Under the pieces are notes generated by a model that was given only the letters and a program-made list of their open reading frames with translations, did no database searches and had not been told where the DNA came from. Below are positions 5,921-22,882 of a DNA stretch of 30,515 nt, piece after piece; position 1 is the first letter of the stretch, and each line of letters opens with the position of its first letter. The DNA is taken from positions 1 through 30,515 of IMG/VR virus record IMGVR_UViG_3300031227_002632; one strand, written 5' to 3'. The translations under genes were made by a program, and so were the position numbers. This stretch comes from a virus.

Positions 5921-5929
5921 GAGAAATAA
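5867..5929 (+). pseudogene. Remnant of a duplicated small gene (20 codons)
   Basis: The ORF MNVGMASGINRTALKALEEK ends with the same ALKALEEK block as its neighbours and carries the third TAAAAGCACTGGAG copy. It looks like the 3' stump left by deletion of a paralogue of the 5322/5929 genes. It might still be translated to position ribosomes on the next gene, whose ATG overlaps its TAA. Confidence 0.4.
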
Positions 5930-6225
5930 TGGGAAAGTTCATAAACGCAAAAGCTGTTGAGGGGTTGAAGGTAGACCTAATATCGCCAGAAACAATAGCT
6001 GATGATTCTGAAAGAAGTCAATCATTTGAAAGAACAAATTTTAGGTCAATAGTTTTTAATTCAGCCCTAGACAAAGTCCTCTCCCTAGCGAAAGAGGTTG
6101 ATGAGGAGAAGCTAGTTGAAATTCTATTAAAAACAATGTTTGTTTCACCATCTGAATATAGAAGGGCAGACGCAGAAGCTGGCGTTAAAGCAATCCTAAA
6201 AGCACTTTCCGAGGAGGGTAAATAA
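5929..6225 (+). CDS. Small duplicated hypothetical protein, copy B
   Basis: A 98-residue paralogue of the 5322 gene: FINAKAVEGL, FNSALDKVLSLAKEV and AILKALSEEGK correspond block by block, with a different central segment. A GGAG site from the upstream repeat precedes it and its start overlaps the previous stop. The function is unknown. The conserved helix LDKVLSLAKEV suggests a small helical protein. Confidence 0.6.
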   Translation: MGKFINAKAVEGLKVDLISPETIADDSERSQSFERTNFRSIVFNSALDKVLSLAKEVDEEKLVEILLKTMFVSPSEYRRADAEAGVKAILKALSEEGK

Positions 6226-7827: not shown

Positions 7828-8529
7828 ATGAAAGGCATAATTTTGGCCGGCGGTTCAGGATCAAGGCTTCGCCCGTTGACGAAGGTAACGAATAAACATT
7901 TGCTTCCGGTTGGTGCATTCCCAATGATTTATTATCCAATCAATCAGTTGATCGAGGCTGGAATTGAGGATGTTTTAATTATAACTGGCGTGGAACATAT
8001 GGGAAAGATGTTTAGCTTGCTTGGAAGCGGCCGCGGCTTTGGTTGTAGGTTTACCTATAAAGTGCAAGACGAAGCCGGTGGAATTGCTCAAGCATTACAA
8101 CTGGCCGAGGATTTCGCAAGTGGTGAGCCGGTGGTTGTCTTACTTGGCGATAATATCTTTGAGGATTCACTAACTCCTTTCATTAACAATTATAAAAACG
8201 GTGCTTATATTTTCTTAAAGGAAGTGCCGGACCCGGAACGATTTGGGATTGCAGAAGTAAAAGAAGGCAGAATAATTTCAATCGAAGAAAAGCCTAAAAT
8301 CCCTAAAGGTAGCCTAGCAATAACCGGGGCTTATATTTATGATTCAAGGGTGTTTGGTTTTACTAAAGAACTTGAGCCAAGTGATAGAGGTGAGTTGGAA
8401 ATCACTGATGTTAATTTAAAATATTTAAAAGAATGTGCTTTAAGTCATTTTGTTTTAAATGGATATTGGACAGACGCCGGCACTTTTGATTCTTATAAGA
8501 TGGCCAATAGATTGGTGAATGGAAAATGA
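7828..8529 (+). CDS. rfbA: Sugar-1-phosphate nucleotidyltransferase (RmlA-type)
   Basis: A 233-residue enzyme that should join a hexose-1-phosphate, probably glucose-1-phosphate, to a nucleotide such as dTTP. The sequence shows the family signature LAGGSGSRLRPLT (6-18) with K23, GDN (107-109) for metal binding, EEKP (153-156), EITDVN (191-196) and WTDAGT (214-219). It is shorter than E. coli RmlA (about 290 residues), lacking the C-terminal region that takes part in tetramer and allosteric contacts, as in the shorter class of homologues. It opens the glycan cassette, directly after the palindrome at 7784-7814, and has GGGAGG upstream. The nucleotide preference cannot be read from sequence with certainty. 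Confidence 0.9.
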   Translation: MKGIILAGGSGSRLRPLTKVTNKHLLPVGAFPMIYYPINQLIEAGIEDVLIITGVEHMGKMFSLLGSGRGFGCRFTYKVQDEAGGIAQALQLAEDFASGEPVVVLLGDNIFEDSLTPFINNYKNGAYIFLKEVPDPERFGIAEVKEGRIISIEEKPKIPKGSLAITGAYIYDSRVFGFTKELEPSDRGELEITDVNLKYLKECALSHFVLNGYWTDAGTFDSYKMANRLVNGK

Positions 8530-8540
8530 TGGCGACGGCA

Positions 8541-8549
8541 TGATATAAT
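8541..8549 (+). promoter_or_regulatory. Possible extended -10 promoter before the kinase/methyltransferase gene
   Basis: TGATATAAT matches an extended -10 element, but no -35 is visible at the usual distance. The inferred start site would fall at or beyond the GGAGG at 8550-8554. It may be a weak internal promoter or chance. Confidence 0.3.
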
Positions 8550-8563
8550 GGAGGAAGAAAACA

Positions 8564-9763
8564 ATGGATAAATTAGTTGTATTCGTAAACGGATTATGTT
8601 ACTCGGGAAAGACTTCGCTAATAAGGAAACTAGAAAAAGAATTGCCCTCGGATTATACGGTTGATAGTTTGGATATTGTTTGTGATAGGGTTTACGTTAC
8701 CTATAAAGCATTAAAGAAAAAACTTGATACTATCTTTGAAACAACTGCTACCAATATTTTTATTGTAGAAACTCACGCCGGTTATGTTTTTGATTTTATG
8801 ACAGAGCAACAAAACTTTGCCGTCTTATATATCAATTTAAAATTGGATTGGAAAGATTGGTCAAGGAACGCTAAGCCGATCAACGTGCCGGACATGAGGG
8901 TTGATAAACTTTCATCGCTTAAAGTATTTATTGATAGGTGCTTGGCAGATAAGAATTATTATGAGGGTGTTGTGGACACCTATGAACTTGTCGCCTCAAG
9001 GGGTAGATATAAATTACACTCCCCTAAAAACATTGATGATTGCTCTGAAATGATCGTTGAGTTTATCAATGAGAATATAGAAAAGACAATGACACAACGG
9101 ATCGCCAAGCTATCAGCATTTGAGCAAAAATACCTAGACCAAAATATAAGAGTATTTCAATACCAAAGCTTTGACTATGGCAACGGAGTTGTAAACACTG
9201 GGATGTCCGATTCAAAGTTTAAGTGGGATAAAGTTTTAAATATGAGCCGGGAGCAAATGGCTTATAGAAGCGTGTTAGATATTGGTTGTAACATTGGCGA
9301 GATAGCAAACTTGGCGGCCTTGAAATGGGCTAATGTTTGCGGGATAGAGCCGCCCGGCCCATACATAGAAGGTGCAAAGTTTTTGCAGAAGAATTTCAGG
9401 AAGCGAGAAATAAGCTTTATTGAAGATGATTTTATGAGGCATGACTTTGGCGACAAGAAGTTTGATTATGTTTTTGCTTTAGCGGTTTTATATTTATTTC
9501 ATCAGGTTGGGAAGTATTCGGTTGATGAGGTTACTGCTAAGGTCAGAAGCGTAACTAAGAAGGTTTTTATTGGTGAACTTACCAACTATGAAGCCAAGGC
9601 GACTAAAGAAGTTGTCCTCAACTCATTAAAGAAACATTTCGATAGGGTTGAGTTTATCGGGGATTCAATGAGAACAAGCACAGCGATAAGGAAGCCTTGG
9701 GCTGATAGGAGTAAAGACTATTCAGATTCACGACAAGTTTGGAAATGTTATGTTGAGGAGTAA
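8564..9763 (+). CDS. P-loop kinase / SAM methyltransferase fusion
   Basis: This 399-residue protein has two domains. Residues 1 to about 175 begin VFVNGLCYSGKTSLI with a Walker A motif (G10 to T17), as in small-molecule kinases of the adenylylsulfate/gluconate kinase type. Residues of about 190-399 hold a class I methyltransferase: VLDIGCNIGE (237-246) is the SAM-binding loop, with acidic E262 after the second strand and FDYVFALAVLYL (300-311) as motif IV. GGAGG precedes the ATG. The kinase could phosphorylate a sugar or small alcohol and the methyltransferase cap a glycan end, by analogy with bifunctional kinase-methyltransferases that terminate O-antigen chains. That analogy is an inference from domain content, because the order and families differ. 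Substrates are unknown. Confidence 0.75.
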   Translation: MDKLVVFVNGLCYSGKTSLIRKLEKELPSDYTVDSLDIVCDRVYVTYKALKKKLDTIFETTATNIFIVETHAGYVFDFMTEQQNFAVLYINLKLDWKDWSRNAKPINVPDMRVDKLSSLKVFIDRCLADKNYYEGVVDTYELVASRGRYKLHSPKNIDDCSEMIVEFINENIEKTMTQRIAKLSAFEQKYLDQNIRVFQYQSFDYGNGVVNTGMSDSKFKWDKVLNMSREQMAYRSVLDIGCNIGEIANLAALKWANVCGIEPPGPYIEGAKFLQKNFRKREISFIEDDFMRHDFGDKKFDYVFALAVLYLFHQVGKYSVDEVTAKVRSVTKKVFIGELTNYEAKATKEVVLNSLKKHFDRVEFIGDSMRTSTAIRKPWADRSKDYSDSRQVWKCYVEE

Positions 9764-9766
9764 ATA

Positions 9767-9868
9767 ATGAAAATAGCAATTTATTATCCCCATCTGCTTT
9801 TGAGCCCTTTCATTCCAGCTTTGCGTAAAGCAATTTTTTGTTTTTTTGAAAGGATTTTACCTTTATGA
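9767..9868 (+). pseudogene. Possible 5' stub of a disrupted gene
   Basis: Four bases after the kinase/methyltransferase stop, an ATG opens MKIAIYYPH, which looks like the first strand of a GT-B or related sugar enzyme. The frame then runs into the antisense HNH gene and ends at 9868 with unrelated sequence. It may be the start of a gene cut by HNH insertion, or a short chance ORF. Confidence 0.3.
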
Positions 9869-10224
9869 TGAAGGGAAGCATGTTGATAATTTCTCATAAT
9901 AATAAGATTTTCAATTCTATTATCGCCATGTATTCCATTTATATGATGAACTACCTCTCCTTTTTCCAGTGGACGATTAAGATGTTTTTCCATTATCATG
10001 CGATGTTCAGATATTTTTTTACCTTTAATGTTAAAAACCCTATATCCACGCTTATTGATATGGCCTGTTCCGTTTTCTGCAAACATTTTCCAAAGTCGTC
10101 CAGTAGTTTTTTTTCTATAATAATGCTTAGAACAATAACCTTTACACAGGACTATGCGATTACAGTTATCAACGGAACAAATTTTATTCTTCCAAAAGTT
10201 TTTAGGATATTTTTTGTTTTTCAT
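9784..10224 (-). CDS. HNH homing-type endonuclease
   Basis: The only clear minus-strand gene, 146 residues from the ATG at 10224. An upstream in-frame ATG at 10239 lies before the promoter's -10 box and is less likely. Residues 16-34 carry C16, C21, C27, C31 and H34, a probable zinc site. The HNH core follows, with EHR at 73-75 and VVHHINGIHGDNRIENL at 92 onward (H93, H94, N96, D101, N102, N106), then H116. The C-terminal SKKQKIALRKAG resembles a NUMOD3-type DNA-binding helix. Free-standing HNH endonucleases of this type spread between phage genomes by cutting alleles that lack them. It lies antisense inside the glycan cassette, consistent with a selfish insertion. Confidence 0.88.
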   Translation of the reverse strand: MKNKKYPKNFWKNKICSVDNCNRIVLCKGYCSKHYYRKKTTGRLWKMFAENGTGHINKRGYRVFNIKGKKISEHRMIMEKHLNRPLEKGEVVHHINGIHGDNRIENLIIMRNYQHASLHHKGKILSKKQKIALRKAGMKGLKSRWG

Positions 10225-10230
10225 GATATA

Positions 10231-10259
10231 ATTATACAACAGAACACAAGGAAGGTCAA
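10231..10259 (-). promoter_or_regulatory. Promoter for the antisense HNH gene
   Basis: On the minus strand TTGACC (10259-10254) and TATAAT (10236-10231) are separated by 17 bases. Only six bases lie between the -10 box and the ATG at 10224, so the transcript would start at or next to the start codon and be leaderless. Confidence 0.65.
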
Positions 10260-10264
10260 CTTAT

Positions 10265-11119
10265 ATGCAAGATAAAAAGATTTGTATCTGCTCACCGATT
10301 TATAATTGCTTAGGATTCACTAAAGAATTTATAGCAAGCATTGAAACAAAGCACCAGTATAGAATTATTATTTTAAATAATGGTTCGCAAGACGGGAGCC
10401 GAGAATGGTTTGGGTTAAGTAAAGAAGCAAAGAAGCACCCGATAACGCTAATAAACTTTGATAAGAATGAAGGGATTAGCAAGGGGGCCAACCGGGCCAT
10501 GCAAGAAGCAATGAATGACCCGGAGATTACGCATATTATTTATGCTAATAACGATATTGTATTTCGCCCGGACACAATAGACACCTTGGTTTGGGCTTGG
10601 GATAACCGGCGAGATGACCGCATGGTTCGTGTGTCCGCCGTAGATATTAGAGAAAGCCATTTCAAGACTTACGAAGAAGGTTTAGAAAACGTAATGAATC
10701 GGGATATAGGTAAGACAAAGAAATTTATTTATGGCGGAAGTTATACCTGTTTTATTTGGGATAAAGAAGCTATTGAAAAAGTCGGGTTGCTTGATGAGAA
10801 TATAGACTATTATGATGATAACATTCACGCAGAAGAAACCCTAAGACGTGGTTGTTTTTCAACGACCTTTGTGCCGGCTTTGGTTTATCATAGGGGAAGC
10901 GGAACGCTACGAGAAAACCCCAAAGAAAAACAAGCATTTCATGCTAAGAGTGATAGGGATAGGAAATATGCTTTAAAGTATTTTGGAGTTGAAGATCAAG
11001 ATGGGATAAGAGAAAAGACCGAACGCGGCCGCCCAATATGGACACCTCGGATTGAAGCAATAAATACTGAAATAGGGGGATTTGTGCATGACTATTTCGA
11101 TAGAACTATTCCGGCCTAG
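10265..11119 (+). CDS. GT2-family glycosyltransferase
   Basis: A 284-residue GT-A-fold enzyme with a GGAAGG site upstream. It starts KICICSPIYNC, then IILNNGSQDGS (35-45), NFDKNEGISKGANRA and ANNDIVF (94-100), where NND takes the place of the usual DxD metal motif. YGGSYTCFIWDKEAIEKVGLLDE is the acceptor-side segment typical of rhamnosyl- and related GT2 enzymes, and YHRGSGT lies near the end. No membrane segment is present, so it acts in the cytoplasm. It overlaps the aminotransferase gene by 32 bases. Donor and acceptor are unknown. It probably transfers the sugar made by the cassette. Confidence 0.85.
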   Translation: MQDKKICICSPIYNCLGFTKEFIASIETKHQYRIIILNNGSQDGSREWFGLSKEAKKHPITLINFDKNEGISKGANRAMQEAMNDPEITHIIYANNDIVFRPDTIDTLVWAWDNRRDDRMVRVSAVDIRESHFKTYEEGLENVMNRDIGKTKKFIYGGSYTCFIWDKEAIEKVGLLDENIDYYDDNIHAEETLRRGCFSTTFVPALVYHRGSGTLRENPKEKQAFHAKSDRDRKYALKYFGVEDQDGIREKTERGRPIWTPRIEAINTEIGGFVHDYFDRTIPA

Positions 11120-12251
11120 TTTTGGCGAAGAAGAATCAGAAGCGGTAAAAGAAACCATTGAAAGTAAGTGGTGGGGATTAGGGCCAAAGACAAGAAGGTT
11201 TGAGGAAAGATTTGCCGATTATATTGGGGTTGATTATGCTTTAGGGGTTAATTCGGGAACGTCGGCTTTAATCCTTGCTTGTCAGGCTTTAAGCGGTTCG
11301 CATATTCGTAGCTTTATTGTGCCGTCAATTACTTTTATTGCTTCTTACTTCGCACCGATTTATCAAACGCTTGGTGATATTTACTTGGCAGACGTTGACC
11401 CTGAAACCATGTTAATGACAGATGAAACTATTCAAAAGACTATTGATAAGTTTAAAATAAATCGACCAATTGTAATACCCGTTCATTTATATGGGAATAT
11501 GTTTAAATTTGAAACAGACAATGTTGAATTAGCTAGTAAAGTAAAAGTTATCGAGGATTGTGCTCACGCTTGCGGCTCAAGTGTTGATGGCAAGAAAGCC
11601 GGATCATTGGGAACTATTGGTTGCTTTAGTTTTCATGCGGTTAAGAATTTGGCTTGTGGTGATGGCGGCATGGTAACGACAAATGATAAAGACTTATACG
11701 AACGAATGAAATCCCTTCGCTGGTTTGGTATTACTAAATCAACTTTTGAAAGGTCAGGCGAGGATAATCTAAAAACAAATTATGGTTGGGAATATGATGT
11801 AATTGAACGCGGCCACAAAATGCACATGAACGATTTAACTGCCGCCATTGGTTTGGTTCAGCTTAAAAAATTAGATGGACATAACCAATCACGAAGGATG
11901 ATTGCAAGAAGATATTTAGAAGCATTGGGTGGACTAGGATGGATAGACTTTATTGGAACTAATCCCGGCGTAAATACTTCACAGCATATTTTTGCAATTA
12001 AAACTAGGAATAGAAACGAGTTGAATGTTTATCTAAAAGAACAGGGCATAGCAACGGGAGTGCATTATAAGCCTATTTATGAATATAGTTTTATCCCGGA
12101 AACAATGAGGAAAACTTTTAAAGAGCATTGCCCCAACACTGAAAGCGAATGGCCGAAGTTACTATCCCTGCCTTGCTACCCGTCGCTTACTGAACTTGAA
12201 CAGGAATATGTTATCAGTCGAATTAAAGAATTTGGGAGGGTTAAGATATGA
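11088..12251 (+). CDS. DegT/DnrJ/EryC1/StrS-family sugar aminotransferase
   Basis: A 387-residue PLP enzyme. The ATG at 11088 is chosen because AGGGGGA lies at the right distance, although the frame is open a little further upstream. Visible signatures are GVNSGTSAL (53-61) for phosphate binding, PVHLYG (131-136), EDCAHACGS (156-164) with the pyridine-binding Asp, and SFHAVKNLACGDGG (181-194) with the Schiff-base lysine K186. A C-terminal HYKPIYEY follows. Such enzymes aminate a keto group on a nucleotide-bound sugar, using glutamate or glutamine. The length matches the family. Its substrate would be a keto-sugar, but no dehydratase that makes one is encoded nearby. Confidence 0.93.
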   Translation: MTISIELFRPSFGEEESEAVKETIESKWWGLGPKTRRFEERFADYIGVDYALGVNSGTSALILACQALSGSHIRSFIVPSITFIASYFAPIYQTLGDIYLADVDPETMLMTDETIQKTIDKFKINRPIVIPVHLYGNMFKFETDNVELASKVKVIEDCAHACGSSVDGKKAGSLGTIGCFSFHAVKNLACGDGGMVTTNDKDLYERMKSLRWFGITKSTFERSGEDNLKTNYGWEYDVIERGHKMHMNDLTAAIGLVQLKKLDGHNQSRRMIARRYLEALGGLGWIDFIGTNPGVNTSQHIFAIKTRNRNELNVYLKEQGIATGVHYKPIYEYSFIPETMRKTFKEHCPNTESEWPKLLSLPCYPSLTELEQEYVISRIKEFGRVKI

Positions 12252-12703
12252 GCATTGAATTAGTTGAGATGGACAAAATGTATGCTAATTATATACCAGA
12301 GATTAAAGAGATCAGGAACGAGTGTGCTAAGAGTTTAAAGGATAGCCGGGAAATATCGGAAGCAGATGTTTATTCTTTTTTCCTTGATAAGGTTTTTTCT
12401 GGGGAACAAAAGATATTTATTATTAAACATACCGAAGGCGTGATCGGCTATATGAATATTAAATACTTTGATAATAATAAATGCGAGGTTGGCATAAAGA
12501 TAAAAGAAAAGCACCGCAACAAAAAGCTAGGTAAGAAATCGCTGGAAATGCTAATAAACAAACTGCTTGATGAATCGATGGATGAAATATCTGCCGAGAT
12601 AAAATCTGATAATGAGCCAAGCCAGAAACTATTTGCTTCTTTAGGGTTTAAAAAGATAAGCGATAAGGAAGGTGTAGAAGTATGGCAACTAAAAAGAGAA
12701 TAA
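12248..12703 (+). CDS. GNAT-family acetyltransferase
   Basis: A 151-residue protein, GGGAGGG upstream, start overlapping the aminotransferase stop by 4 bases. The GNAT fold is shown by VIGYMNIKYFDNNKCEVGIKI, the acetyl-CoA pyrophosphate loop in KEKHRNKKLGKKSLEML, and the terminal SDNEPSQKLFASLGFKK. Placement directly after a sugar aminotransferase strongly suggests N-acetylation of the new amino group, as PseH- or WecD-like enzymes do. The sequence alone does not prove the substrate. Confidence 0.85.
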   Translation: MSIELVEMDKMYANYIPEIKEIRNECAKSLKDSREISEADVYSFFLDKVFSGEQKIFIIKHTEGVIGYMNIKYFDNNKCEVGIKIKEKHRNKKLGKKSLEMLINKLLDESMDEISAEIKSDNEPSQKLFASLGFKKISDKEGVEVWQLKRE

Positions 12704-13608
12704 TGTTTGCCGGGGCAACCGGCTACGGAAACCTTGGTGATGATTGTTATAAGGATATTTTTGCAAAGTATTTGTGCAAAGACTATGACTTAATATTTGA
12801 TAGTCCTTATCCTGATATTAGATATATGGATAAGGTGGATTATCTTGTTATAGGTGGCGGTGGTTTAATTTACGATAACGAAAGCGATCACTTCAACTAT
12901 ATGAAGAAATACATGGACGCGGCGATAGAAAGAAATATACCATTATTTTTTATTTCATGCGGTGTTCAGATATTCCGAAATAGTTTTAAGGCAGACCTAG
13001 AGAATAAAAACATTAAAGGGTTAGCCGATACGATAAATAACTGGAAACCTTATTTGGAAAAAGCGGTTTTAATTACTGTTCGATCGGAGATGGACGCACA
13101 GGTTATAAAAGAATTATCAGATAAGGTTTGTCCTATTATATTGCCGGATATGTGTTATATGGTTGAGCCAAGTAAACATCAAATAGTAGATAATATTAAA
13201 ACTGTAATTATTCCTAACAAACAACTATTCGGGTTTGAGGATTATATAGAAAGGGTTAAGGAACACTTAAACGAAAACACTTTTATGTTGGCAATGTCTA
13301 GCGAGGACAATTATATTATTGAGCAGATTGGTCTACGACTTGGAATGAAAAGCATGTTAAACGATAGGCGAATGGTAACAGTAGGCGAAGCCGCCCGGAT
13401 GATTAAAGACGCGGATAAGGTTATCACAAGCCGATATCATGGCATTGTATTTGCCCGGGCCATGGGAAAGAAGGAAGAAGATATTGAGATTTGGATGGAT
13501 AATTTCAAGGGTTTAACGGAAATGAAACCTTACTGCATGCTGGCTTCGGAAGGTCATATCGAATACCTAAAAGACAGGATGAGTGAATTGGAGGAAAAAT
13601 ATGACTAG
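12682..13608 (+). CDS. Polysaccharide pyruvyltransferase-like protein
   Basis: A 308-residue protein with GYGNLGDDCY (15-24) near the start, DYLVIGGGGLIY (53-64) in the first domain and ITSRYHGIVFA (248-258) in the second. These are the hallmark motifs of the CsaB/WcaK/AmsJ pyruvyltransferase family, which puts a pyruvate ketal on sugars from phosphoenolpyruvate. In bacteria this anchors S-layers or decorates exopolysaccharide and teichoic acid-like polymers. Its length is near the family norm. It overlaps the acetyltransferase by 22 bases. Some family members have other activities, so ketal formation is likely but not certain. Confidence 0.88.
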   Translation: MATKKRIMFAGATGYGNLGDDCYKDIFAKYLCKDYDLIFDSPYPDIRYMDKVDYLVIGGGGLIYDNESDHFNYMKKYMDAAIERNIPLFFISCGVQIFRNSFKADLENKNIKGLADTINNWKPYLEKAVLITVRSEMDAQVIKELSDKVCPIILPDMCYMVEPSKHQIVDNIKTVIIPNKQLFGFEDYIERVKEHLNENTFMLAMSSEDNYIIEQIGLRLGMKSMLNDRRMVTVGEAARMIKDADKVITSRYHGIVFARAMGKKEEDIEIWMDNFKGLTEMKPYCMLASEGHIEYLKDRMSELEEKYD

Positions 13609-14077
13609 AAATCTTGATGAGATAATGGCCTTGAATATCGGTAGCGGTAACAATGTAACGATGGAATATATAAACTTGGATATCCGGCCGGAAACTAAAG
13701 CTGATGTTATAGCAGACGCACGCGAGCTTCCCTTCCCTGATGAAAGGTTTGATAAAGTATTTTCTACTGATTGCCTAGAGCATTTCTCACACCGGGAAAC
13801 CTATGCCGTGCTTGCGGAGTGGATCCGGGTATTAAAGAAGGGCGGGCTTTTAGAACTGCATGTGCCTAACCTGTTAGCCGCCTGTTTAGCATTAGAAAAA
13901 GATGATTTCCCTACTGCTATCAATGTATTATATGGGGCTCAAGATTACAAAGAAAACTTTCACTACATGGGATTTACTCCTAAAGCCATAACAAGAATAT
14001 TGACCGGGTTGCATATTACCATCGCAAGCATTGAAACCTCTGGTTTGCATTTAAAAGTGAGGGGGATAAAACAATGA
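13601..14077 (+). CDS. Small SAM-dependent methyltransferase (type 11)
   Basis: A 158-residue protein, started at ATG 13601 because GGAGG sits at 13590-13594. The open frame reaches 13583 without a site. ALNIGSGN (10-17) is the SAM loop, NLDIRP follows the second strand, DVIADARELPFPDERFDKVFSTDCLEHF (35-62) is the type 11 core, and VLKKGGLLELHVPN (77-90) follows. This fold is common in glycan clusters, where it methylates sugars or acts as a fused helper. The target is unknown. It overlaps its neighbours by 8 and 4 bases. Confidence 0.85.
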   Translation: MTRNLDEIMALNIGSGNNVTMEYINLDIRPETKADVIADARELPFPDERFDKVFSTDCLEHFSHRETYAVLAEWIRVLKKGGLLELHVPNLLAACLALEKDDFPTAINVLYGAQDYKENFHYMGFTPKAITRILTGLHITIASIETSGLHLKVRGIKQ

Positions 14078-14946
14078 TGGATATTGTAACATGCGTAATA
14101 AATCGGATTGGGTTTATTGAGAAGCTTGTTAAAAGCCTTGATGAAACTTTATCCAAGCCACGTAAATTGACGATCTTAGATAATGGGTCAGATAAGGATG
14201 TGAAGGGTTACGCTGAAAAGATTGGAGCCGGTTATATAAGAAACGAAACTAACAAGGGAATCTATAAGGCTTATGATCAGGCTTACCGGGCTACCAAAGA
14301 GAAATATTTAGCAATGGTGCATAACGATATTTATATATTTGAAAAGAACTGGGATAAACGCGTCTTGGATATCATAGAAGAAGTAGAAAAGAAATATGGC
14401 AAGAAGGTTGGCATTGTTGGATTCGCTGGCAGTAGTGGTGGCAATAAAGACGCTTCACGAGCCGGGTTTATGAGTAACCTAATATCGTTTGAAGGCTCTC
14501 AAGAAGCCGAGGTGCATGGATTAAGAATTACAGACCATCACCCGGCAGTCTTTCTTGATGGCTCGGTGATGATTTGTAGTCGTGAAATGCTAGATAAAAT
14601 AGGTGGAATAGATACTGGATATAAGTGCCATCATATTTATGATTATGAAATGTCGCTTGCTTCCATTAACGCCGGGTTTGTTAATGTGGTGGTTGGTGTT
14701 AAATTCGCACACCGGGGCGGGATAACTGCTATAAGCTATGAGGCCCAAGAATCTTTTAATGAGTGGTGCAAAGATGATAAGGAATTAAGTGATTATTTCC
14801 AGCAAGGGCAGACGTTTAATCCTCGTTTAATGCCAGAGCAAGCCATAATGGATTTCAATATAAATAGATTCTTTAGGAAGTGGCAGAACTTCTTACCATG
14901 TTATATGGATGAGCAATTTAATTTAATTAAAGGGAGGTCGTATTAA
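14074..14946 (+). CDS. GT2-like glycosyltransferase
   Basis: A 290-residue GT-A-type protein. Motifs are LTILDNGSD (32-40), NETNKGIYKAYDQAY (57-71) and MVHNDIYIFE (81-90), where HND replaces the usual DxD. HHPAVFLDGSVMICSREMLDKIGGID matches the acceptor-domain segment of GT2 enzymes. It is only distantly similar to the GT2 at 10265, so it probably transfers a different sugar or uses a different acceptor. There is no membrane segment. Its ATG overlaps the methyltransferase stop and its stop overlaps the next gene's start (TAATG). Confidence 0.8.
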   Translation: MMDIVTCVINRIGFIEKLVKSLDETLSKPRKLTILDNGSDKDVKGYAEKIGAGYIRNETNKGIYKAYDQAYRATKEKYLAMVHNDIYIFEKNWDKRVLDIIEEVEKKYGKKVGIVGFAGSSGGNKDASRAGFMSNLISFEGSQEAEVHGLRITDHHPAVFLDGSVMICSREMLDKIGGIDTGYKCHHIYDYEMSLASINAGFVNVVVGVKFAHRGGITAISYEAQESFNEWCKDDKELSDYFQQGQTFNPRLMPEQAIMDFNINRFFRKWQNFLPCYMDEQFNLIKGRSY

Positions 14947-16466
14947 TGCAAGACGCACAAACAATTAATGGTGATATATTAAAAAAAGAGGAAAAAAAGG
15001 AAAAAGATAAAAAGAAAAGAGGGCGGCCTAAGAAAATTAAAAATAAGGGTGGATTAGTAGTTTTTCCAGAACAACTTGAAGAAGCTAAGAAAATATTAAA
15101 AGAAACTGGAACATTATACGCACAAGCTATAAATGATAATAAAGCGAGTAAGAAAACCAAGAAATATAAACTCCTTTGGTATGGTGATTCCCCAACCGCT
15201 AACACCGGCTTTGGTAACGTATCAGAAAACGTGCTTGAGCAACTACAAAACACTGGGCTATTTGATATTACCGTATTAGCGATTCAATATTATGATGATC
15301 CTATGGTTGATCTACACAAGAAAGACTTATTACCCTACCGCATAATCGCCGCCGGGAATAATCACGAACGCGATATGTTTGGCCGCAAGAAATTATTAAA
15401 CCTCATTATGAATGAGCACTTTGATATTATTATTACTTTCCAAGATCTACCTAACCTCATAACAAAGAATCATGGTTGTAAAAATTCAATCAGATCAGCT
15501 ATTGACTGGGCCAAGGGGTATTTCCAAAAAGAAATTAAGTGGATGGTATACACCCCGGTTGATGGACAAATGAAAAACTTTGAGCTAGAGCCAGTAGAGG
15601 ACGCAGACTTAACAGCCTTTTATACTAGGTATGGTTATTTTCAAGCATTTAATTTATTAGGCAAAGAGATAATAAAACAATGCTCTAATAAAAAGATACA
15701 GAAACTACTCATTGATGAAATGACTAAAAAGATGTGCTTTATTTATCATGGCACTAATACAGATGATTTCTACCCTATACCAAGAGAGGAATTATTGGAG
15801 TTTAGAAAAGAATACTTTGGCATTGACCCGGACACCTTTTTAATTATCAATGTTAACCGCAACCAACCAAGGAAGGATATGCACAAGACAATAGAGGCAT
15901 ATGCAAAGTTTAAGCAAAAGAATCCTGATTGTAAAGCAATGCTTTACTTGCACTGCCGGGATATCGATGTTGGTGGCAACCTAAACGAGATAGTGGAAGC
16001 CTATGGTAAACCACTCGGAATAAAACTAACTCAAAACCTTGATGTTATTAAAGGGTGCTCGATAGAAACCCTAAACAAGATTTATAATTGTGCTGATCTG
16101 TATATTACTACTACAATGGGCGAAGGGTGGGGCTTAACAGTAACCGAGGCAATGGCTACTAAATTATTAACCATAATCCCGCCACACAGTAGTTTGATTG
16201 AAATAGGCGATGATAGCCGGACATTATTTGTGAACTGTAATAATACTGTTTGCACTCATGAGGACTTTTACAGGGTGCGGCCGGTTGTTAATACTGATGA
16301 CCTAGCCATGAAAATTGAGATGGTTTATAAATCAAGGGAGAAGTTTAAGTCTGTTATCAATAACGCTTATAATTGGGTTACAGAAATAACTTGGGAAGCA
16401 GTTGGCCGAGAATGGATAGCAAGGATAAAAGAGCTGTTAAATGAAAATACAAAACGCCCGTTATGA
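14946..16466 (+). CDS. GT4-family glycosyltransferase with basic N-terminal tail
   Basis: A 506-residue protein. Residues 1-75 form a low-complexity Lys/Glu segment with KKRGRPKK (23-30), an AT-hook-like sequence that binds DNA minor groove in other proteins. A GT-B domain then starts at YKLLWYGDSPTANTGFG (74-90). INVNRNQPRKD (301-311) opens the donor-binding half. EGWGLTVTEAMA (393-404) is the nucleotide-sugar signature of GT4. GGAGGT precedes the ATG. It is the last gene of the cassette and overlaps the sigma-like gene. The tail could bind nucleic acid, a membrane surface or a capsid protein. Which one cannot be decided from sequence. Confidence 0.85.
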   Translation: MQDAQTINGDILKKEEKKEKDKKKRGRPKKIKNKGGLVVFPEQLEEAKKILKETGTLYAQAINDNKASKKTKKYKLLWYGDSPTANTGFGNVSENVLEQLQNTGLFDITVLAIQYYDDPMVDLHKKDLLPYRIIAAGNNHERDMFGRKKLLNLIMNEHFDIIITFQDLPNLITKNHGCKNSIRSAIDWAKGYFQKEIKWMVYTPVDGQMKNFELEPVEDADLTAFYTRYGYFQAFNLLGKEIIKQCSNKKIQKLLIDEMTKKMCFIYHGTNTDDFYPIPREELLEFRKEYFGIDPDTFLIINVNRNQPRKDMHKTIEAYAKFKQKNPDCKAMLYLHCRDIDVGGNLNEIVEAYGKPLGIKLTQNLDVIKGCSIETLNKIYNCADLYITTTMGEGWGLTVTEAMATKLLTIIPPHSSLIEIGDDSRTLFVNCNNTVCTHEDFYRVRPVVNTDDLAMKIEMVYKSREKFKSVINNAYNWVTEITWEAVGREWIARIKELLNENTKRPL

Positions 16467-16713
16467 TGAATGTTGGCGGTTTTTAAATAATGATCGTTTA
16501 GTATTAATAGAAGAATTGTTGGATATATTAAATAGGGAAGAACGAAGGATAGTTTGTTGCTCTTTTGGGTTAAAAAGTTATAGGACAATTAAACGCCCAT
16601 CCTTACGCAATGCCTCAAGGATTCTTGGGATACCTAGAACAACGATACGCAGAAGATTTATCAATATAAAAAGAAAGATAAAAGCTGAATTGTTTAAGCA
16701 ATATTTAAGTTAA
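16441..16713 (+). CDS. Sigma region 4-like HTH protein, possible late regulator
   Basis: A 90-residue basic protein. Residues of about 20-85 resemble sigma70-family region 4: a first helix LLDILNREERRIVCCSFGL, then SLRNASRILGIPRTTIRRRFINIKRKIKAE, which has the helix-turn-helix spacing used to read a -35 box. No region 2 is present, so it is not a full sigma factor. Small phage proteins of this shape (for example the ArpU type) activate late genes. It sits just before a hairpin and -10-like box leading into the terminase genes, which supports that role. The start has only a weak ribosome binding site, so translation may be coupled to the glycosyltransferase it overlaps. Confidence 0.65.
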   Translation: MKIQNARYDECWRFLNNDRLVLIEELLDILNREERRIVCCSFGLKSYRTIKRPSLRNASRILGIPRTTIRRRFINIKRKIKAELFKQYLS

Positions 16714-16792: not shown

Positions 16793-17260
16793 ATGTCCGA
16801 AAATGCGGCGATCATTTTAAAGAACTTAAAAAGCAAGGTTATTACCACTAATGACCTATCCCAAGATGATAAGAAGGTTTTAGTTTTCCATCTTTTAGAG
16901 ATGGGTAATTTATTTAGTTATGAAATTGCTCACATTGTTGGTTATTCACAATCACGAATTAAACAATTAAAAAAAGACTTTAAGAATGAACAGGCTTGTT
17001 TAATTGATGATGTAGATATTAAAAGTGTAGCGGTTGAAACCATGAGGGTGGCCGATATTGCCAAGGTTAGGTTAGCAAAGAATGGACAATGGGCTCAAGT
17101 GTGGCGGGTGCAAAAAGAACTGGTTGAGAAGCTACAGGAATTAGGCTTTATTCATAAAGAGCCGATTAGTTTTAAAGTATCATATGATGATCTTGTATTA
17201 AAATGGGGAGAATTTTTTGGAATTACTTTGCCAAAACAAAACGCAAACGCAGACAATTAA
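16793..17260 (+). CDS. Putative terminase small subunit
   Basis: A 155-residue protein with AAGGGG before the ATG. The N-terminal part holds a helix-turn-helix (YEIAHIVGYSQSRIKQLKKDF), as DNA-recognition domains of small terminases do. The centre is a helix likely to be for oligomerisation (VRLAKNGQWAQVWRVQKELVEKLQEL), and the C-terminus is short. The call rests mainly on its place directly before, and overlapping, the large terminase. Small subunits vary too much for sequence alone to decide. Confidence 0.65.
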   Translation: MSENAAIILKNLKSKVITTNDLSQDDKKVLVFHLLEMGNLFSYEIAHIVGYSQSRIKQLKKDFKNEQACLIDDVDIKSVAVETMRVADIAKVRLAKNGQWAQVWRVQKELVEKLQELGFIHKEPISFKVSYDDLVLKWGEFFGITLPKQNANADN

Positions 17261-18497
17261 GGATATAGATAATCCAGTATCATTATATAACTATCAGAAG
17301 CAGATAGTTTTAAATGATTCGCCTAAACAGATATATAATAAATCAAGACAGATTGGCTTTTCTTTTTCATTAGCTTTAAGGGCTTACTTAAGGGGGCTTA
17401 ACGGCCCCGGGTTTACCGCCTTATATATTTCAGTAGCACAACGGCTGGCCGGGGAATGGCTGGACAAGATAAGAATATTTTTATTGATAAACAATATAAC
17501 CCCGGTGGTTGATAAGTTTTCTGAAATTAAATTACCTAACGGCTCACGCTTCTTGGCCTTACCACAAAACCCTGATTCTGCTAGAAGTTATTCACCAGAT
17601 GAGATTTATCTTGATGAGTTTAGCCATTATAAAAAAGATAAGAAGATGTTAACTGCATTAGTCCCGGCACTCTCAAGAAGGGATAAGCAAAGGAAACTAC
17701 TTATTGGATCTACTCCGTTTGGTAAGGCTGGCGAATTTTTTAAACTATGGGATGGCAATAATGATTATGACAAAATCAAAGTTGATATTTATGACGCAAT
17801 AGCACAAGGTTGTCCGCTTGATTTAGACTTCTGCCGCAACTCAATTGATGAGGATTCTTTTCAGCAAGAGCATTGTTGCCAATTCGTTGATGATATTTCA
17901 GCCTTCTTTCCTTATGAACTTATTAAGGCTTGCTGGAATGAAGAATTAACAAACCTAAGTCTTGAGCAGTTATCGGCCATTAAAAACCCTCTGTATGCTG
18001 GATATGACCCGGGTAAACTGGTTGATAGCGGTGTGTTTTATGTTGTGGAAAAGGATGGGGATAAGTGGATAACTCGGCATATCAAGGAATGGAAGAAGAT
18101 TAATTATCAAGTTCAACTACAGCATATTGAGAAGGCTTTTAAGATTGCTAGAATAACCAAACTAAGAATGGACAGAACGGGCGTGGGCGAAAAACTCTAT
18201 GAGGATTTACATAACGCCCATCACAGCCGGGTTGAGGGAGTATCATTCACCAACGCAATTAAAGAGAAGATGGCCATTGATTTAAAGGTTGTATTTGAGG
18301 ATAAACAGATTGAGATTCCTTATAACATGATCTTAACGAATCAATTACACGGTTTGCAAAGATTGATAACAAAGAGCAATAATGCTCGATACACTCATCA
18401 GACAGGACAACATGACGATTATGTATGGGCTTTAGCACTGGCGATAACCAATAACAGCAATGTTAAAACAATTCAAGCCAGATATTTAGGAGATTAA
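17217..18497 (+). CDS. terL: Terminase large subunit
   Basis: A 426-residue DNA-packaging motor. It uses a TTG start with GGGGAG at 17205-17210; no ATG occurs before the ATPase domain. SRQIGFS (43-49) is the terminase-style Walker A, EIYLDEF (129-135) the Walker B with D133/E134, and IGSTPFG (163-169) motif III. The nuclease half shows AGYDPG with D264, RMDRTG with D319, and HDDYVWALAL with D400/D401, the expected metal-binding acids. It translocates DNA into proheads with ATP and cuts concatemers. It overlaps the small subunit by 44 bases. Confidence 0.93.
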   Translation: MELLCQNKTQTQTIKDIDNPVSLYNYQKQIVLNDSPKQIYNKSRQIGFSFSLALRAYLRGLNGPGFTALYISVAQRLAGEWLDKIRIFLLINNITPVVDKFSEIKLPNGSRFLALPQNPDSARSYSPDEIYLDEFSHYKKDKKMLTALVPALSRRDKQRKLLIGSTPFGKAGEFFKLWDGNNDYDKIKVDIYDAIAQGCPLDLDFCRNSIDEDSFQQEHCCQFVDDISAFFPYELIKACWNEELTNLSLEQLSAIKNPLYAGYDPGKLVDSGVFYVVEKDGDKWITRHIKEWKKINYQVQLQHIEKAFKIARITKLRMDRTGVGEKLYEDLHNAHHSRVEGVSFTNAIKEKMAIDLKVVFEDKQIEIPYNMILTNQLHGLQRLITKSNNARYTHQTGQHDDYVWALALAITNNSNVKTIQARYLGD

Positions 18498-18500
18498 AAT

Positions 18501-20498
18501 ATGGGAATGGTAGACACTTTTAAAAAGATGTTTTCAAAGGCGAAAAGTTTTATGATCCCGCTTTCTATGGCTGATGTATATCCTAAAAGCAATTTCAATG
18601 ATTACAACAGTTATCTATCCGCGGCCCAAACAATATCATGGGTTTATAAATGTGTATCAATCCGGGGTGAAAGCATTGCTACTGTTAAAGGATTTGTCTA
18701 TGACCAGAAGGGTGAAGAAGTAAAGAGTGAAGGGCTTAACAAACTTTTCACAAAGCCTAATAAATTGATGAACTGGTTCGAGTTTAAAGAGTCCTTGAAT
18801 TGGTTTTTAGATTTAACTGGTAACGCTTATATTTTAAAAGATTCAATTAACATGAAAAATCTACCAACTGAATTGTATCTTTTAAGACCAGACAGAATGG
18901 AAGTCGTGCCGTCAAGGACTGATTTTATTGCTGGTTATCAATACAATTTAGATGGTAGGAAAATATCTTTTAAGAAAGAGGATATTATCCATATTAAATT
19001 ACCTAACCCTAGAAATCCTTTTTATGGTATGGGTAAGATTGAAGCGTGCAAGATTGTTTATGATACCGAGATCGCCGCTTCTGGTTATAATTGGAATTTC
19101 TTTAAACAAGGAGCAAGTCCGGCCGCTATATTAAGCAATGAGGGTGTTTTAGATAATGATACCTATAAACGATTGGTAAAACAATTTCAATCCCGGCATA
19201 CAGGTTATAAGAAAATGCAAAAGCCTTTATTGCTTGAGCAAGGCACTCAATATAAACAAATGGGTTTAAGTCAGCAAGACATGGCCTTTATGGAGCAACG
19301 AAAGTTTACGAGAGAAGAAATCCTATCAATGTTTGGTGTGCCGCCGGCAAAGGCTGGAATCCTTGAATATGCTAGTTATGCTAACACAAAAGAGCAAGAG
19401 AACTCTTACCGTAAGGACACCCTAAAACCTCTTTTAACACGGCTAGAGCTCATTATAACGGCTGAAATCGTTAGTTTGTTTAACCCTAGCTGGACTTATG
19501 AATTTGAGGAAGTAGTTAACCGAGATGAAAAAGAATTTATGGAATTAGCGACAACAGGGCTGGACAAGGGATTATTGACGCCTAATGAAGCACGCGAGCT
19601 TTATTTAGATCTGCCAGAGGTAACGAATGAGCCGGCCATGAACACTTATTATCTGCCGATGTCCTTAATTCCAATTACAGGAGAAGTGGCAGAAGCCTTT
19701 AATGAGGAACTTGAAACCACACCTGAAAAACAAATATGCGGACATAATCATAAATTAACAGATGTTAATCAATCCAAAGCAGTTAACATACAGCAATTAT
19801 TATTAAGGTTGGCTAATTTAACTAAGCGTAAAATAGGGGTTAAATATAAAAAGGCCACCAAGAAATACATGAAAGAACTTACTAATGAAGTTATGGATAT
19901 GATTGATGAGTTAGATACCGAAAAAGGATTGATCATAACCGATGGCAAGGCAACTGATTTTGTTGGTAGGTTTGAGAACTCTGGTTCATATAATCGATAT
20001 AAGGAATCAATGGAGCAAATATCTGTTAACCTATCATTGGGTGCAGTTGATAATGTGTCCGGGGCCATGAACTCCGAGCCGCCAACTGATCCATTAAAGA
20101 ATCCTAAATTTAAAAAGAGGATAGGCAAATTAGGTAAGAGAATCAAAGGAATTGAAAACACTACCTTACAGCAATTAGATAGCACTTTAAATGCTGGATT
20201 ATTAGAAGGTGAATCAATCCCTCAATTAAAAGCTAGAGTATCAACGGTTATGACTAGGAAGCAAGGCTGGGAAGCGGTAAGAATTGCCCGGACTGAAAGT
20301 GCTTACTCTTATGACAGTGGTGCTATATATGGATATGATGAAGCCGGGGTTAAGTTTTTAGATGTAATAGGTTGCACAATGATTGAGCCTGATTATGATT
20401 GTGGGAAAGTGCATGTGCCTGTTGAAGCCTCGTATGATTTAGATTTTCACCCTAACCACACCGGGACATTCGTGCCGTCGTTTGGGGTGGGGGAATAG
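18501..20498 (+). CDS. Portal protein fused to a MuF-like domain
   Basis: A 665-residue protein, GGAG upstream. Residues 1 to about 400 are an HK97-type portal: AAQTISWVYKCVSIRGESIA, WFLDLTGNAYILKD, RPDRMEVVPS, IIHIKLPNPRNPFYGMGKIEA and FGVPPAKAGILEYASYANTKEQE. Residues of about 420-665 are a head morphogenesis domain of the SPP1 gp7/Mu gpF type, ending RIARTESAYSYDSGAIYGYD (594-613) and HPNHTGTFVPSF. The portal forms the dodecameric DNA gate. MuF-type proteins enter the capsid and may be injected. The two are usually separate adjacent genes, so this is a fusion. The frame is continuous with no sign of a sequencing join. Confidence 0.88.
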   Translation: MGMVDTFKKMFSKAKSFMIPLSMADVYPKSNFNDYNSYLSAAQTISWVYKCVSIRGESIATVKGFVYDQKGEEVKSEGLNKLFTKPNKLMNWFEFKESLNWFLDLTGNAYILKDSINMKNLPTELYLLRPDRMEVVPSRTDFIAGYQYNLDGRKISFKKEDIIHIKLPNPRNPFYGMGKIEACKIVYDTEIAASGYNWNFFKQGASPAAILSNEGVLDNDTYKRLVKQFQSRHTGYKKMQKPLLLEQGTQYKQMGLSQQDMAFMEQRKFTREEILSMFGVPPAKAGILEYASYANTKEQENSYRKDTLKPLLTRLELIITAEIVSLFNPSWTYEFEEVVNRDEKEFMELATTGLDKGLLTPNEARELYLDLPEVTNEPAMNTYYLPMSLIPITGEVAEAFNEELETTPEKQICGHNHKLTDVNQSKAVNIQQLLLRLANLTKRKIGVKYKKATKKYMKELTNEVMDMIDELDTEKGLIITDGKATDFVGRFENSGSYNRYKESMEQISVNLSLGAVDNVSGAMNSEPPTDPLKNPKFKKRIGKLGKRIKGIENTTLQQLDSTLNAGLLEGESIPQLKARVSTVMTRKQGWEAVRIARTESAYSYDSGAIYGYDEAGVKFLDVIGCTMIEPDYDCGKVHVPVEASYDLDFHPNHTGTFVPSFGVGE

Positions 20499-20507
20499 GA
20501 GAGTAGA

Positions 20508-21698
20508 ATGTCATTACCTAATGAACATATTGCAAGAGTTCGTGATCCAAAAGATTTTAGTCAAACGTCGTTTAGAAGCAAGGACGTTGAAAAAGGCATA
20601 CGAGTAATTATAGGCAAATTGAAGGGTGAAACCGGTGAGGATGATCCTATGATTATCGAGAGTTATCATTTTAGCATTGATAAGTTCACCGAGGCGGAGG
20701 CTAATGCATGGCTTAAAGATAATGACATAACTTATATTAAGTTTGAGCCGGCTACTGGTGATGATGAGGAAGAACAAATAGAAGAAGCAATAGAAGGAGA
20801 AGATAACATGGAAACAGAGAATATTAAAAAGTTTAGTTGTGAGTGTATCAAGTGCGGCCATAAAATGGAGAGTGATAAACATTGTAAGGATATATTATGC
20901 TCTGAATGTGGCGGTGAGATGAGAAGGGCGGAAAGGCCCGGGCCCGGCAGAGGTGCTCCGGAGAAGCAAAATAAACAGTTTGCCATATCCAGTTTTAAAT
21001 CAGGAAAGATGGATGACGGCCGCATATTTATTGAGGGTTATGCCAATACGAAAAACAAAGAAGATCGTTATGGTGATATCCCTACTGTATATCCGGCAAA
21101 GAGGGGTTATGTTTATGAGTTAAAAAGTTTTCTTAAACATCCAGTCTTATTATTAGACCATGATAATAGCACTGGAAGCATAGCCGGGTCGTTTAACCCT
21201 AAGTATGGCGGCCATATTTTTGAGGATAATATAGGATTAAAATTTAAAGCAATATTTAGTGAGAGTGATCAAGAAAAAGTAAGGCATGCTAGGACTGTTT
21301 ATAATGAAGGCCACGGCCGGGCTTTAAGCATAGGTGGAAAGTGGTTACATGAAAACCCTGATAACCCTAAACAATTAACATTAGCTGATATTGTCGAGAT
21401 TTCATTAGTTGGAATTGGTGCGGATGAGGACGCTTTAACCACAAAGAATGGGCCAAAGGGTATTCAATCGCCGTATAATGAGGACGTATTAATGAGCAAG
21501 AACAACGAATCTGGCGATCATCAAACGGGTTTAGCCGAAGGTGAGAAAGCCGGGCGTGTCCTCTCAAAATCAAATGAGGGGAAAATAAGAAATGCTCAAG
21601 AAATGCTAACTCAAGTTTTAAGTGCATTATCTAAAGAAAAAGAGGAGGACAAACAATGTCGAAAAATATTGAAGTTGAAGTTGACGAAAAAGAATTAA
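20508..21698 (+). CDS. HK97-family prohead protease with N-terminal domain and zinc ribbon
   Basis: A 396-residue protein. Residues 1-90 form the accessory domain often found before phage prohead proteases (EHIARVRDPKDF, FTEAEANAWLKDN). Residues 108-150 are a zinc ribbon (C111, C113, C116, C126, C131, C134) followed by ERPGPGR. The protease occupies about 155-315, with H218 in LLLDHD and S274 in GRALSIGGKW as the likely catalytic pair and DIVEISLVGIG closing the core. It trims capsid subunits before maturation. An internal in-frame ATG at 20808 has its own GGAG site, so a shorter product may also be made. Its end overlaps the capsid gene by 43 bases. Confidence 0.88.
   Translation: MSLPNEHIARVRDPKDFSQTSFRSKDVEKGIRVIIGKLKGETGEDDPMIIESYHFSIDKFTEAEANAWLKDNDITYIKFEPATGDDEEEQIEEAIEGEDNMETENIKKFSCECIKCGHKMESDKHCKDILCSECGGEMRRAERPGPGRGAPEKQNKQFAISSFKSGKMDDGRIFIEGYANTKNKEDRYGDIPTVYPAKRGYVYELKSFLKHPVLLLDHDNSTGSIAGSFNPKYGGHIFEDNIGLKFKAIFSESDQEKVRHARTVYNEGHGRALSIGGKWLHENPDNPKQLTLADIVEISLVGIGADEDALTTKNGPKGIQSPYNEDVLMSKNNESGDHQTGLAEGEKAGRVLSKSNEGKIRNAQEMLTQVLSALSKEKEEDKQCRKILKLKLTKKN
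20808..20810 (+). promoter_or_regulatory. Possible internal start codon of the prohead protease
   Basis: This ATG (codon 101 of the protease) is preceded by GAAGGAGAAG, a good ribosome binding site. Translation here would yield a 296-residue product with the zinc ribbon and protease but no N-terminal domain. Confidence 0.45.
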
Positions 21699-22882
21699 AG
21701 GATATGATCGCAGGACAAGTTAAGGAAGTAATGGATGAGTCGAAAACTGCTGAACAAAAAGAATTGGAGAAGAAAGAACTTGAGAAAAAGGAATTAGAGA
21801 ATAAGGGTAAAACCTTTTCCGAAGATCAAGTTAAGAAAATGATTGATACAGTGCTTGAGAAAACGATTAAAGAAAAAAAGATGCAATTTCCCGGAATAAT
21901 TAAAGAAAAGGGTGAAGGCGATCGTAATTTTGCAGAAGTATTGAAAGCTATTAGATATAGAGATCAATACCTTTTGAAGAAATACGATATGTCATTTGTT
22001 AAAGATGAAAAGATTATGGTAGAGGGTGTAAATGCCGGTGGTGGATTTCTTGTGCCGCCAGAGTTTGCACAACAGATAATTGATGAATCTTTGACTTATG
22101 AAGTTATCCGAGGACTTTGCACAGCAGTCCCGATGACTGGATTTGTTAAGAATTGGCCAGTATTATTGTCAGGTTCGTCTGCATATTGGATCGATGAAAA
22201 TGGTAAGAAAACTGAAAGCACACCAGTGTGGGGTCAGTTAACGCTTACTGCATATAAATTATGCTCATTGGTTAAAGTTACAGATGAAGAACTTGAAGAT
22301 AGTAATCCGTCAGCAAGCCAATTTCTTATCAAGAATTTTGCAGAGGTAATTGGTAACGAAGAAGATAGGGCAATGTTAGTTGGAACTGGTGGTGCTGGTG
22401 ATCCTATTACTGGATTGCTTAACCAAGCCGGTGTTAATATCGTCCCGTCTGGCGTGCTTCTAACCTTCGATGATATTATTGACGCAATGACACTTGCATT
22501 ACAAAATGGTGCAAAAGATTTAGCGTTTTTAATTAATCCTAGAGATATTGGCACTTTGATGACTCTTAAAGACGCGAACGGCCAGTATTTGTGGGGGAAT
22601 CCTACCACAAGCACACCGGCAACCATTTATGGTCGCCCGGTTTATTTAGATGGTAATATTCCAACGAATCTTGGTGCTGGACTAAATCAATCTGTAATGT
22701 TTGTTGGGGAGTTTAAGAAAACCTTTGTTGCTAATAAAGGTGGAATTATTATATCTAACGGATTAGACGGAGAAGATTTTAGTTACGATAGATCAAGTTT
22801 TAGGGCGGTAAAGAGAACGGGATTGGCTATTGCGGCTCCCGCAAGACCAAAGATTTCCGTTATAACAGGAATTAATCCCTAG
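21656..22882 (+). CDS. HK97-fold major capsid protein
   Basis: A 408-residue protein with GAGGAGG upstream. Residues 1 to about 115 are a charged helical delta domain that should act as built-in scaffold and be removed by the protease. It contains three tandem KELEK units (residues 35-49). The mature part opens with GVNAGGGFLVPPEFAQQII (124-142), a hallmark of HK97-type capsid proteins, and continues with TDEELEDSNP, GNEEDRAMLVGTGGAGDPITGLL and FLINPRDIGTLM, all typical of this family. No separate scaffold gene is needed. A decoration protein may follow at 23016. Confidence 0.92.
   Translation: MSKNIEVEVDEKELKDMIAGQVKEVMDESKTAEQKELEKKELEKKELENKGKTFSEDQVKKMIDTVLEKTIKEKKMQFPGIIKEKGEGDRNFAEVLKAIRYRDQYLLKKYDMSFVKDEKIMVEGVNAGGGFLVPPEFAQQIIDESLTYEVIRGLCTAVPMTGFVKNWPVLLSGSSAYWIDENGKKTESTPVWGQLTLTAYKLCSLVKVTDEELEDSNPSASQFLIKNFAEVIGNEEDRAMLVGTGGAGDPITGLLNQAGVNIVPSGVLLTFDDIIDAMTLALQNGAKDLAFLINPRDIGTLMTLKDANGQYLWGNPTTSTPATIYGRPVYLDGNIPTNLGAGLNQSVMFVGEFKKTFVANKGGIIISNGLDGEDFSYDRSSFRAVKRTGLAIAAPARPKISVITGINP

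Follow-up and report, generated by a model that had tools for sequence, protein, structure and literature searches.

The IMG/VR virus record IMGVR_UViG_3300031227_002632, a 30,515-base fragment of a tailed-phage genome analysed here in its entirety (the window), carries a nine-gene cassette for glycan synthesis and transfer at positions 7828-16466. The cassette is a real, conserved and modular phage element, which is richer than its precedents and of an already known kind. Judging from sequence comparisons, we assign a probability of about 0.55 to its being a late-expressed operon with which the phage would decorate, within the host cell, the proteins of its own virion, by way of the amino-sugar pathway proposed below. 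A first-pass annotation had placed the nine genes between recombination genes and the terminase, and profile searches bore this out. All nine are intact plus-strand open reading frames (ORFs), and their Pfam families are those it had named, including RmlA, DegT, GNAT, PS_pyruv_trans, GT2 and GT4. The cassette genes, with one minus-strand gene lying among them, are as follows.

7828..8529, plus strand: RmlA-like glucose-1-phosphate thymidylyltransferase, short form, 233 amino acids (Pfam NTP_transferase 1.6e-55)
8564..9763, plus strand: fusion of a P-loop (kinase-like) domain and a class-I methyltransferase, 399 amino acids (Methyltransf_25 3.1e-8, residues 237-332)
9784..10239, minus strand: HNH endonuclease (Pfam HNH_3 2.3e-8; likely start ATG 10224)
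10265..11119, plus strand: GT2 glycosyltransferase 1 (Glycos_transf_2 8.7e-13)
11088..12251, plus strand: DegT/PseC-like sugar aminotransferase (DegT 5.9e-92)
12248..12703, plus strand: GNAT N-acetyltransferase (Acetyltransf_1 (GNAT) 1.5e-11)
12682..13608, plus strand: polysaccharide pyruvyltransferase family protein (PS_pyruv_trans 3e-16)
13601..14077, plus strand: small class-I S-adenosylmethionine (SAM) methyltransferase (Methyltransf_11 7.9e-12)
14074..14946, plus strand: GT2 glycosyltransferase 2 (Glycos_transf_2 4.2e-10, Glyco_tranf_2_5 4.5e-9)
14946..16466, plus strand: GT4 glycosyltransferase of phage family phrog_2170 (Glycos_transf_1 2.9e-12; phrog_2170 1.2e-36)

From the first GT2 gene at 10265 to the end of the GT4 gene at 16466, each neighbouring pair of genes overlaps by 1-32 bp, and a purine-rich stretch resembling a ribosome-binding site precedes each start. 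Two starts were corrected: that of DegT is probably ATG 11088, and that of the small methyltransferase is probably ATG 13601. Given these overlaps, co-expression from the first GT2 gene onward is likely, as the first-pass annotation had proposed, and the cassette is probably one operon inside the phage genome, ahead of the virion genes. The expected motifs are present in seven of the nine proteins. None of the nine reaches the hydropathy threshold for a membrane segment, and neither Pfam nor hydropathy showed any of them to be a flippase, polymerase or lipid-carrier transferase.

Two other IMG/VR contigs hold the cassette together with its recombination-side and terminase-side junctions, at a DNA identity of at least 99.9%. 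The alignment to the first spans 17.0 kb with 3 mismatches, while that to contig 3300023246_000243 spans 23.6 kb with 26 mismatches, none of them within the cassette. A cassette of host DNA, misassembled or carried along by chance, is hardly credible: the enzyme families are of bacterial type, but both junctions recur in the two other assemblies, and the same gene order stands before the terminase in a sister phage and in unrelated phages. Misassembly and host contamination, which the first-pass annotation had named as its own possible refutation, were thus rejected, and the cassette stands.

Searches with the GT4 and DegT proteins found two further lineages. In a sister phage lineage (G003/G004; terminase 61% and portal 64% identical), the terminase is preceded by the tail of a GT2, DegT (52%), GNAT (48%), the pyruvyltransferase-family protein, the methyltransferase, a GT2 and the GT4, in the order of the window. 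The stretch of G003 between its RmlB gene and the GT2 tail is missing from the contig. Joining the end of this contig to its start produced a chimeric nuclease-GT2 frame and was dropped, as the contig has no end overlap. In G005, whose portal, terminase and capsid have no BLAST match to those of the window, the kinase-methyltransferase (42%), GT2 (47%), DegT (56%), a GNAT, GT2 (37%) and GT4 (50%) likewise precede the terminase in window order. Since six cassette genes keep their order beside unrelated head genes in G005, the cassette behaves like a module that either moves between phages or outlives the replacement of head genes. A fourth lineage (L033) carries a relative of the pyruvyltransferase-family protein (38%), an FkbM methyltransferase and a GT4 after its tail genes.

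The placement of the GT4 gene bears on the acceptor. The window GT4 matches phrog_2170 over its full length (profile positions 5-373 of 374), and the motif GEGWGL.(V/I)TEAMA is kept in three lineages, in the form EGWGLTVTE in the window; the protein is 66% identical in G003, 50% in G005 and 33% in the Tetrasphaera phage TJE1. In six of the eight phage lineages examined, a GT4 of this type lies in or beside the virion genes: upstream of the terminase in the window lineage (sister included), in G005 and in TJE1, between portal and capsid in Synechococcus phage S-CBS4, after the capsid gene in Microcystis phage Mae-JY09, and among head-tail genes in G006 (annotation by eye). Phage glycosyltransferases are thus encoded together with virion genes, as would be expected for virion glycosylation. 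In the window, the recombination genes NinG and RusA flank the cassette upstream, and the terminase, portal, protease and major head protein follow it, in agreement with the earlier statement that it sits directly ahead of the virion genes. The downstream neighbours are as follows.

16441..16713, plus strand: small sigma-70 region-4-like protein, 90 amino acids (Sigma70_r4 1.3e-4, below cut-off; phrog_351 2.7e-5)
16793..17260, plus strand: probable small terminase, directly before the large terminase (DNA-binding profile 1.3e-4; 42% in G003)
17217..18497, plus strand: large terminase (phrog_5909 2e-51)
18501..20498, plus strand: portal (phrog_2662 7.2e-86)
21656..22882, plus strand: major head protein, candidate glycan acceptor (phrog_10 5.1e-58)

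The gene for the sigma-70 region-4-like protein shares 26 bases with the end of the GT4 gene, and it has a 46% identical homologue in the sister G003. This protein may regulate the transition from cassette to head genes, switching the latter on. By eye, the interval between GT4 and terminase in G005 (L021:12943-13480, minus strand) encodes a GroES-type co-chaperonin-like protein (13202-13480) and a sigma-like ORF (12943-13212).

The location of the GT4 gene, and of the cassette, beside head genes is the ground on which we argue for a virion acceptor. The same enzymes might instead, in the course of infection or lysogeny, place an unusual sugar on a polysaccharide or a surface protein of the host and so block the adsorption of competing phages, the second role offered by the first-pass annotation. 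Genes for DegT, GNAT, pyruvyltransferase-family and GT2 proteins are a usual feature of polysaccharide loci, and nucleotide-sugar genes in groundwater phages have been interpreted as serving host-surface remodelling (PMC12911398; PMC10980836). The sister phage also has an apparent CI/LexA-type repressor, read from its sequence (L017:9781-9107), and may therefore be temperate. However, the cassette encodes neither membrane proteins nor a flippase, a polymerase or a lipid-carrier transferase, no tyrosine integrase was found in five records, all possibly fragments, and the cassette adjoins head genes across unrelated phages rather than occupying a separate moron position. Host-surface remodelling is therefore unlikely in our estimate, if far from negligible, and of the two roles virion glycosylation is favoured, by the co-location with head genes in unrelated phages and by the lack of membrane proteins. 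A soluble glycoconjugate, or a single modified host component unrelated to virion or surface, is a very improbable product, given the conserved linkage to head genes and a cassette devoid of export functions.

The first step of the proposed virion-decorating pathway would be that of RmlA. The window RmlA has as its best solved relative a glucose-1-phosphate thymidylyltransferase (3hl3, 3e-88), and it carries the nucleotide and metal motifs GGSGSRLRPLT, LGDN, EEKP and WTDAGT. It scores under the curated cut-off of TIGR01207 (229.9 versus 360.65 bits), the C-terminal part of the model being unmatched. Family, motifs and solved relatives agree on the glucose-1-phosphate thymidylyltransferase of a deoxythymidine diphosphate (dTDP)-4-amino-4,6-dideoxyhexose pathway. 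In dTDP-sugar biosynthesis, a 4,6-dehydratase step is needed between RmlA and DegT. No Epimerase-family match occurs anywhere in the 30.5-kb record, a fragment outside which the gene could lie. The cassette thus lacks the 4,6-dehydratase, and the earlier description of a "full activation-to-transfer set" is wrong. In the sister G003, whose RmlA is 60% identical, an RmlB gene immediately follows the RmlA gene, and its product scores above the curated cut-off (384.4 versus 365.1 bits). As this RmlB supplies the missing step, we argue that the product derives from dTDP-4-keto-6-deoxyglucose.

For the DegT protein, the best NCBIfam model is PseC (6.7e-79, below cut-off), and the putative pyridoxal phosphate-binding lysine, in SFHAVKN, is kept in three lineages. 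The GNAT protein has a weak match to PseH (1.5e-6, also below cut-off), and its loop departs from the consensus pattern. Given that PseC is the nearest model for DegT and PseH is among the GNAT models, both below cut-off, C4 as the site of amination counts as a lead and not as a result. In view of the sister's RmlB, an N-acetylated dTDP-amino-dideoxyhexose is the probable product.

Among the decorating enzymes, the pyruvyltransferase-family protein matches CsaB at 3.1e-9, below cut-off; its PS_pyruv_trans domain and conserved Arg/His motif SRYHG place it in the family, and it is 63% identical to its G003 counterpart. The small methyltransferase carries a GSG motif and is 54% identical to its counterpart in G003; over 63 residues it shares 32% identity (2.6e-8) with the methyltransferase adjoining the GT4 of S-CBS4. 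The first GT2 carries NND and HRGSG, is 47% identical in G005 and has a weak GtrB-like profile match (6.2e-7). The second has HND in place of NND and is 61% identical in G003 and 37% in G005.

Together, these enzymes suggest the following route. RmlA would make dTDP-glucose, which a 4,6-dehydratase (the host RmlB or an unsequenced phage gene; in the sister, the phage RmlB) would convert to dTDP-4-keto-6-deoxyglucose. DegT would aminate this compound, probably at C4, and the GNAT protein would acetylate the amine. The two GT2s and the phage-type GT4 would then link the glycan to a head or tail protein and lengthen it, while the methyltransferases and the pyruvyltransferase-family protein would cap or vary it, possibly with pyruvyl groups. 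Because no cassette protein is predicted to be membrane-bound, all steps can run in the cytosol, which fits modification before assembly. The view that the genes could help to make a modified amino sugar and to transfer it is supported, apart from the RmlB step, which is absent from the window.

Several observations weigh against this account. DegT and GNAT score under the curated cut-offs of the models for named functions. RmlB is absent from the window and neither RmlA nor RmlB was found in the G005 record, so that the pathway depends on the host or on missing sequence. The virion acceptor is putative and follows from gene location, and the soluble enzymes could also feed host surface polysaccharides. 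Finally, in two of the eight lineages the GT4 is placed otherwise: beside a primase rather than head genes in S-EIVl, and after the tail genes, with RecA in between, in L033.

The fusion protein and the GT4 tail raise a further alternative, in which modified bases in the phage genome would be the target of the glycosyltransferases, with the kinase-like domain priming the base. The N-terminal part of the fusion has the Walker A motif GLCYSGKT and a weak thymidylate-kinase profile match, while its C-terminal half is a methyltransferase with the SAM motif DIGCNIGE. The Lys-rich N-terminal tail of the GT4 (14946-15060) contains an AT-hook-like KRGRPKK, which is also found in G003. The P-loop domain and the AT-hook would suit such a role, but the GT4 of G005 lacks the AT-hook, no thymidylate-synthase-family hydroxymethylase was found in five incomplete records, and RmlA, DegT and GNAT indicate a dTDP-sugar. 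A search for Tet/JBP gave no match in the records, and as its positive control was also silent, it was uninformative. The glycosyltransferase families of the cassette are not among the known families of DNA glucosyltransferases. DNA glycosylation or hypermodification is thus improbable. The fusion protein has a 42% identical homologue in G005, and no relatives in phage records at the search sensitivity used; a pattern scan of a bacterial and archaeal genome collection likewise found none for it or for the portal. AlphaFold models built on alignments of 2-3 sequences were too poor for a fold search (mean pLDDT, the predicted local distance difference test, 39.9 for the fusion and 51.0 for GT4).

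The plus-strand run is broken between the fusion and the first GT2 by a 501-bp gap (9764-10264) encoding the minus-strand HNH endonuclease, relatives of which occur in 111 phage records. G005 lacks this insert and the two flanking genes overlap there, so the HNH gene is most simply a later insertion. An 11/12 promoter match precedes it at 10259-10231, the overall promoter count being at chance level. A plus-strand ORF at 9865-10275 was discarded, since it matches no family and is antisense to the HNH gene. Straight after the fusion stop, an ATG with a ribosome site (9766-9783; MKIAIYY...) reads into the 3' end of the HNH gene; it may be what is left of the start of a gene that the insertion split.

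Elsewhere in the window, 23 of the 26 differences from 3300023246_000243 are packed into 82 bases (26074-26155) at the end of the ORF at 25334-26182, changing only one amino acid; most simply, a diverged relative donated a short tract here by recombination or conversion. Two small ORFs, 5322-5555 and 5929-6225, share a 37-base repeat (97%), and in this region the same contig has 125 bases where the window has 808, which suggests recombination in the repeat region.

The first-pass annotation had called such a gene set rare, and this holds in part. For the 283 viral relatives of DegT, 80 loci were kept, including five known contigs and some near-duplicates. Among these, RmlA, RmlB and DegT occur together in the fetched stretch at eight loci that belong to none of the known lineages, and the order GT2-DegT-GNAT-GT2-GT4 occurs in none of the eight. 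However, RmlA-RmlB-DegT sets recur in other viral contigs, TJE1 has a similar cassette at the same location and complete rmlBACD sets exist in coliphages. Among named phages, 173 records hold RmlA relatives and 85 hold DegT relatives; roughly half of the former are Escherichia phages, where the complete rmlBACD was found; the pyruvyltransferase-family protein and the second GT2 had no relatives in named-phage records at that sensitivity.

More broadly, and only tentatively, the cassette may be a mobile virion-glycosylation module with its own amino-sugar synthesis, swapped among tailed phages with unrelated heads and giving the particles a coat of methylated or pyruvylated N-acetyl amino sugar, which the host itself may be unable to produce. 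If so, some phages would bring a custom glycan coat instead of just borrowing sugars from the host, and their stability, adsorption and recognition might be affected. The phrog_2170 GT4 beside head genes offers a checkable family marker, and TJE1 a cultured relative.

Among known systems, Gtr-type serotype conversion (GtrA/GtrB/Gtr) differs in using a membrane flippase, GtrA, and a membrane glycosyltransferase, whereas the cassette proteins have no membrane segment. The DegT and GNAT pair resembles PseC-PseH and WecE (PseC/ArnB-type), but it accompanies RmlA/RmlB rather than a uridine diphosphate N-acetylglucosamine dehydratase, and both members score below equivalog cut-offs. Coliphages of the Justusliebigvirus/phAPEC8 type, such as Escherichia phage outra, share dTDP-sugar activation (RmlA 47% identical). 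Unlike the window, they carry a complete rmlBACD set, which serves dTDP-rhamnose synthesis and is located close to ribonucleotide reductase genes. Neither an aminotransferase nor a glycosyltransferase is annotated next to it, and the surroundings contain no terminase.

The isolated phage TJE1 (HQ225832) comes closer. As in the window, a run of such genes lies a short way ahead of TerL, portal and capsid: orf9-orf14 include a nucleotidyltransferase, a P-loop kinase, an SDR epimerase/dehydratase-like protein, a methyltransferase and a GT4. The GT4 (33% over 453 columns) is the sole BLAST-detectable homologue; the methyltransferase of the TJE1 cassette is of the FkbM type, and the cassette has no annotated DegT, GNAT, pyruvyltransferase or GT2. 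S-CBS4 and Mae-JY09 likewise keep a phrog_2170-type GT4 within the head gene block, and S-CBS4 also has a GT2-like protein, the methyltransferase homologous to the small one of the window and, adjoining its GT4-methyltransferase module, an opposite-strand HNH gene (L026:11447-11962) that parallels the one in the window. Unlike the window, these modules have no annotated sugar-activation genes.

Mycobacteriophages reportedly use glycosyltransferases of their own to glycosylate capsid and tail tube (PMC12363180; PMC11256854). In Che8, Corndog and Myrna this was shown experimentally, whereas the proposal for the window is drawn from its genes; those reports cover glycosyltransferases and not an amino-sugar cassette. 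Virion glycosylation has been reported in few phages, with phage glycosyltransferases, and it is to this scheme that the window would add the synthesis of an amino sugar.

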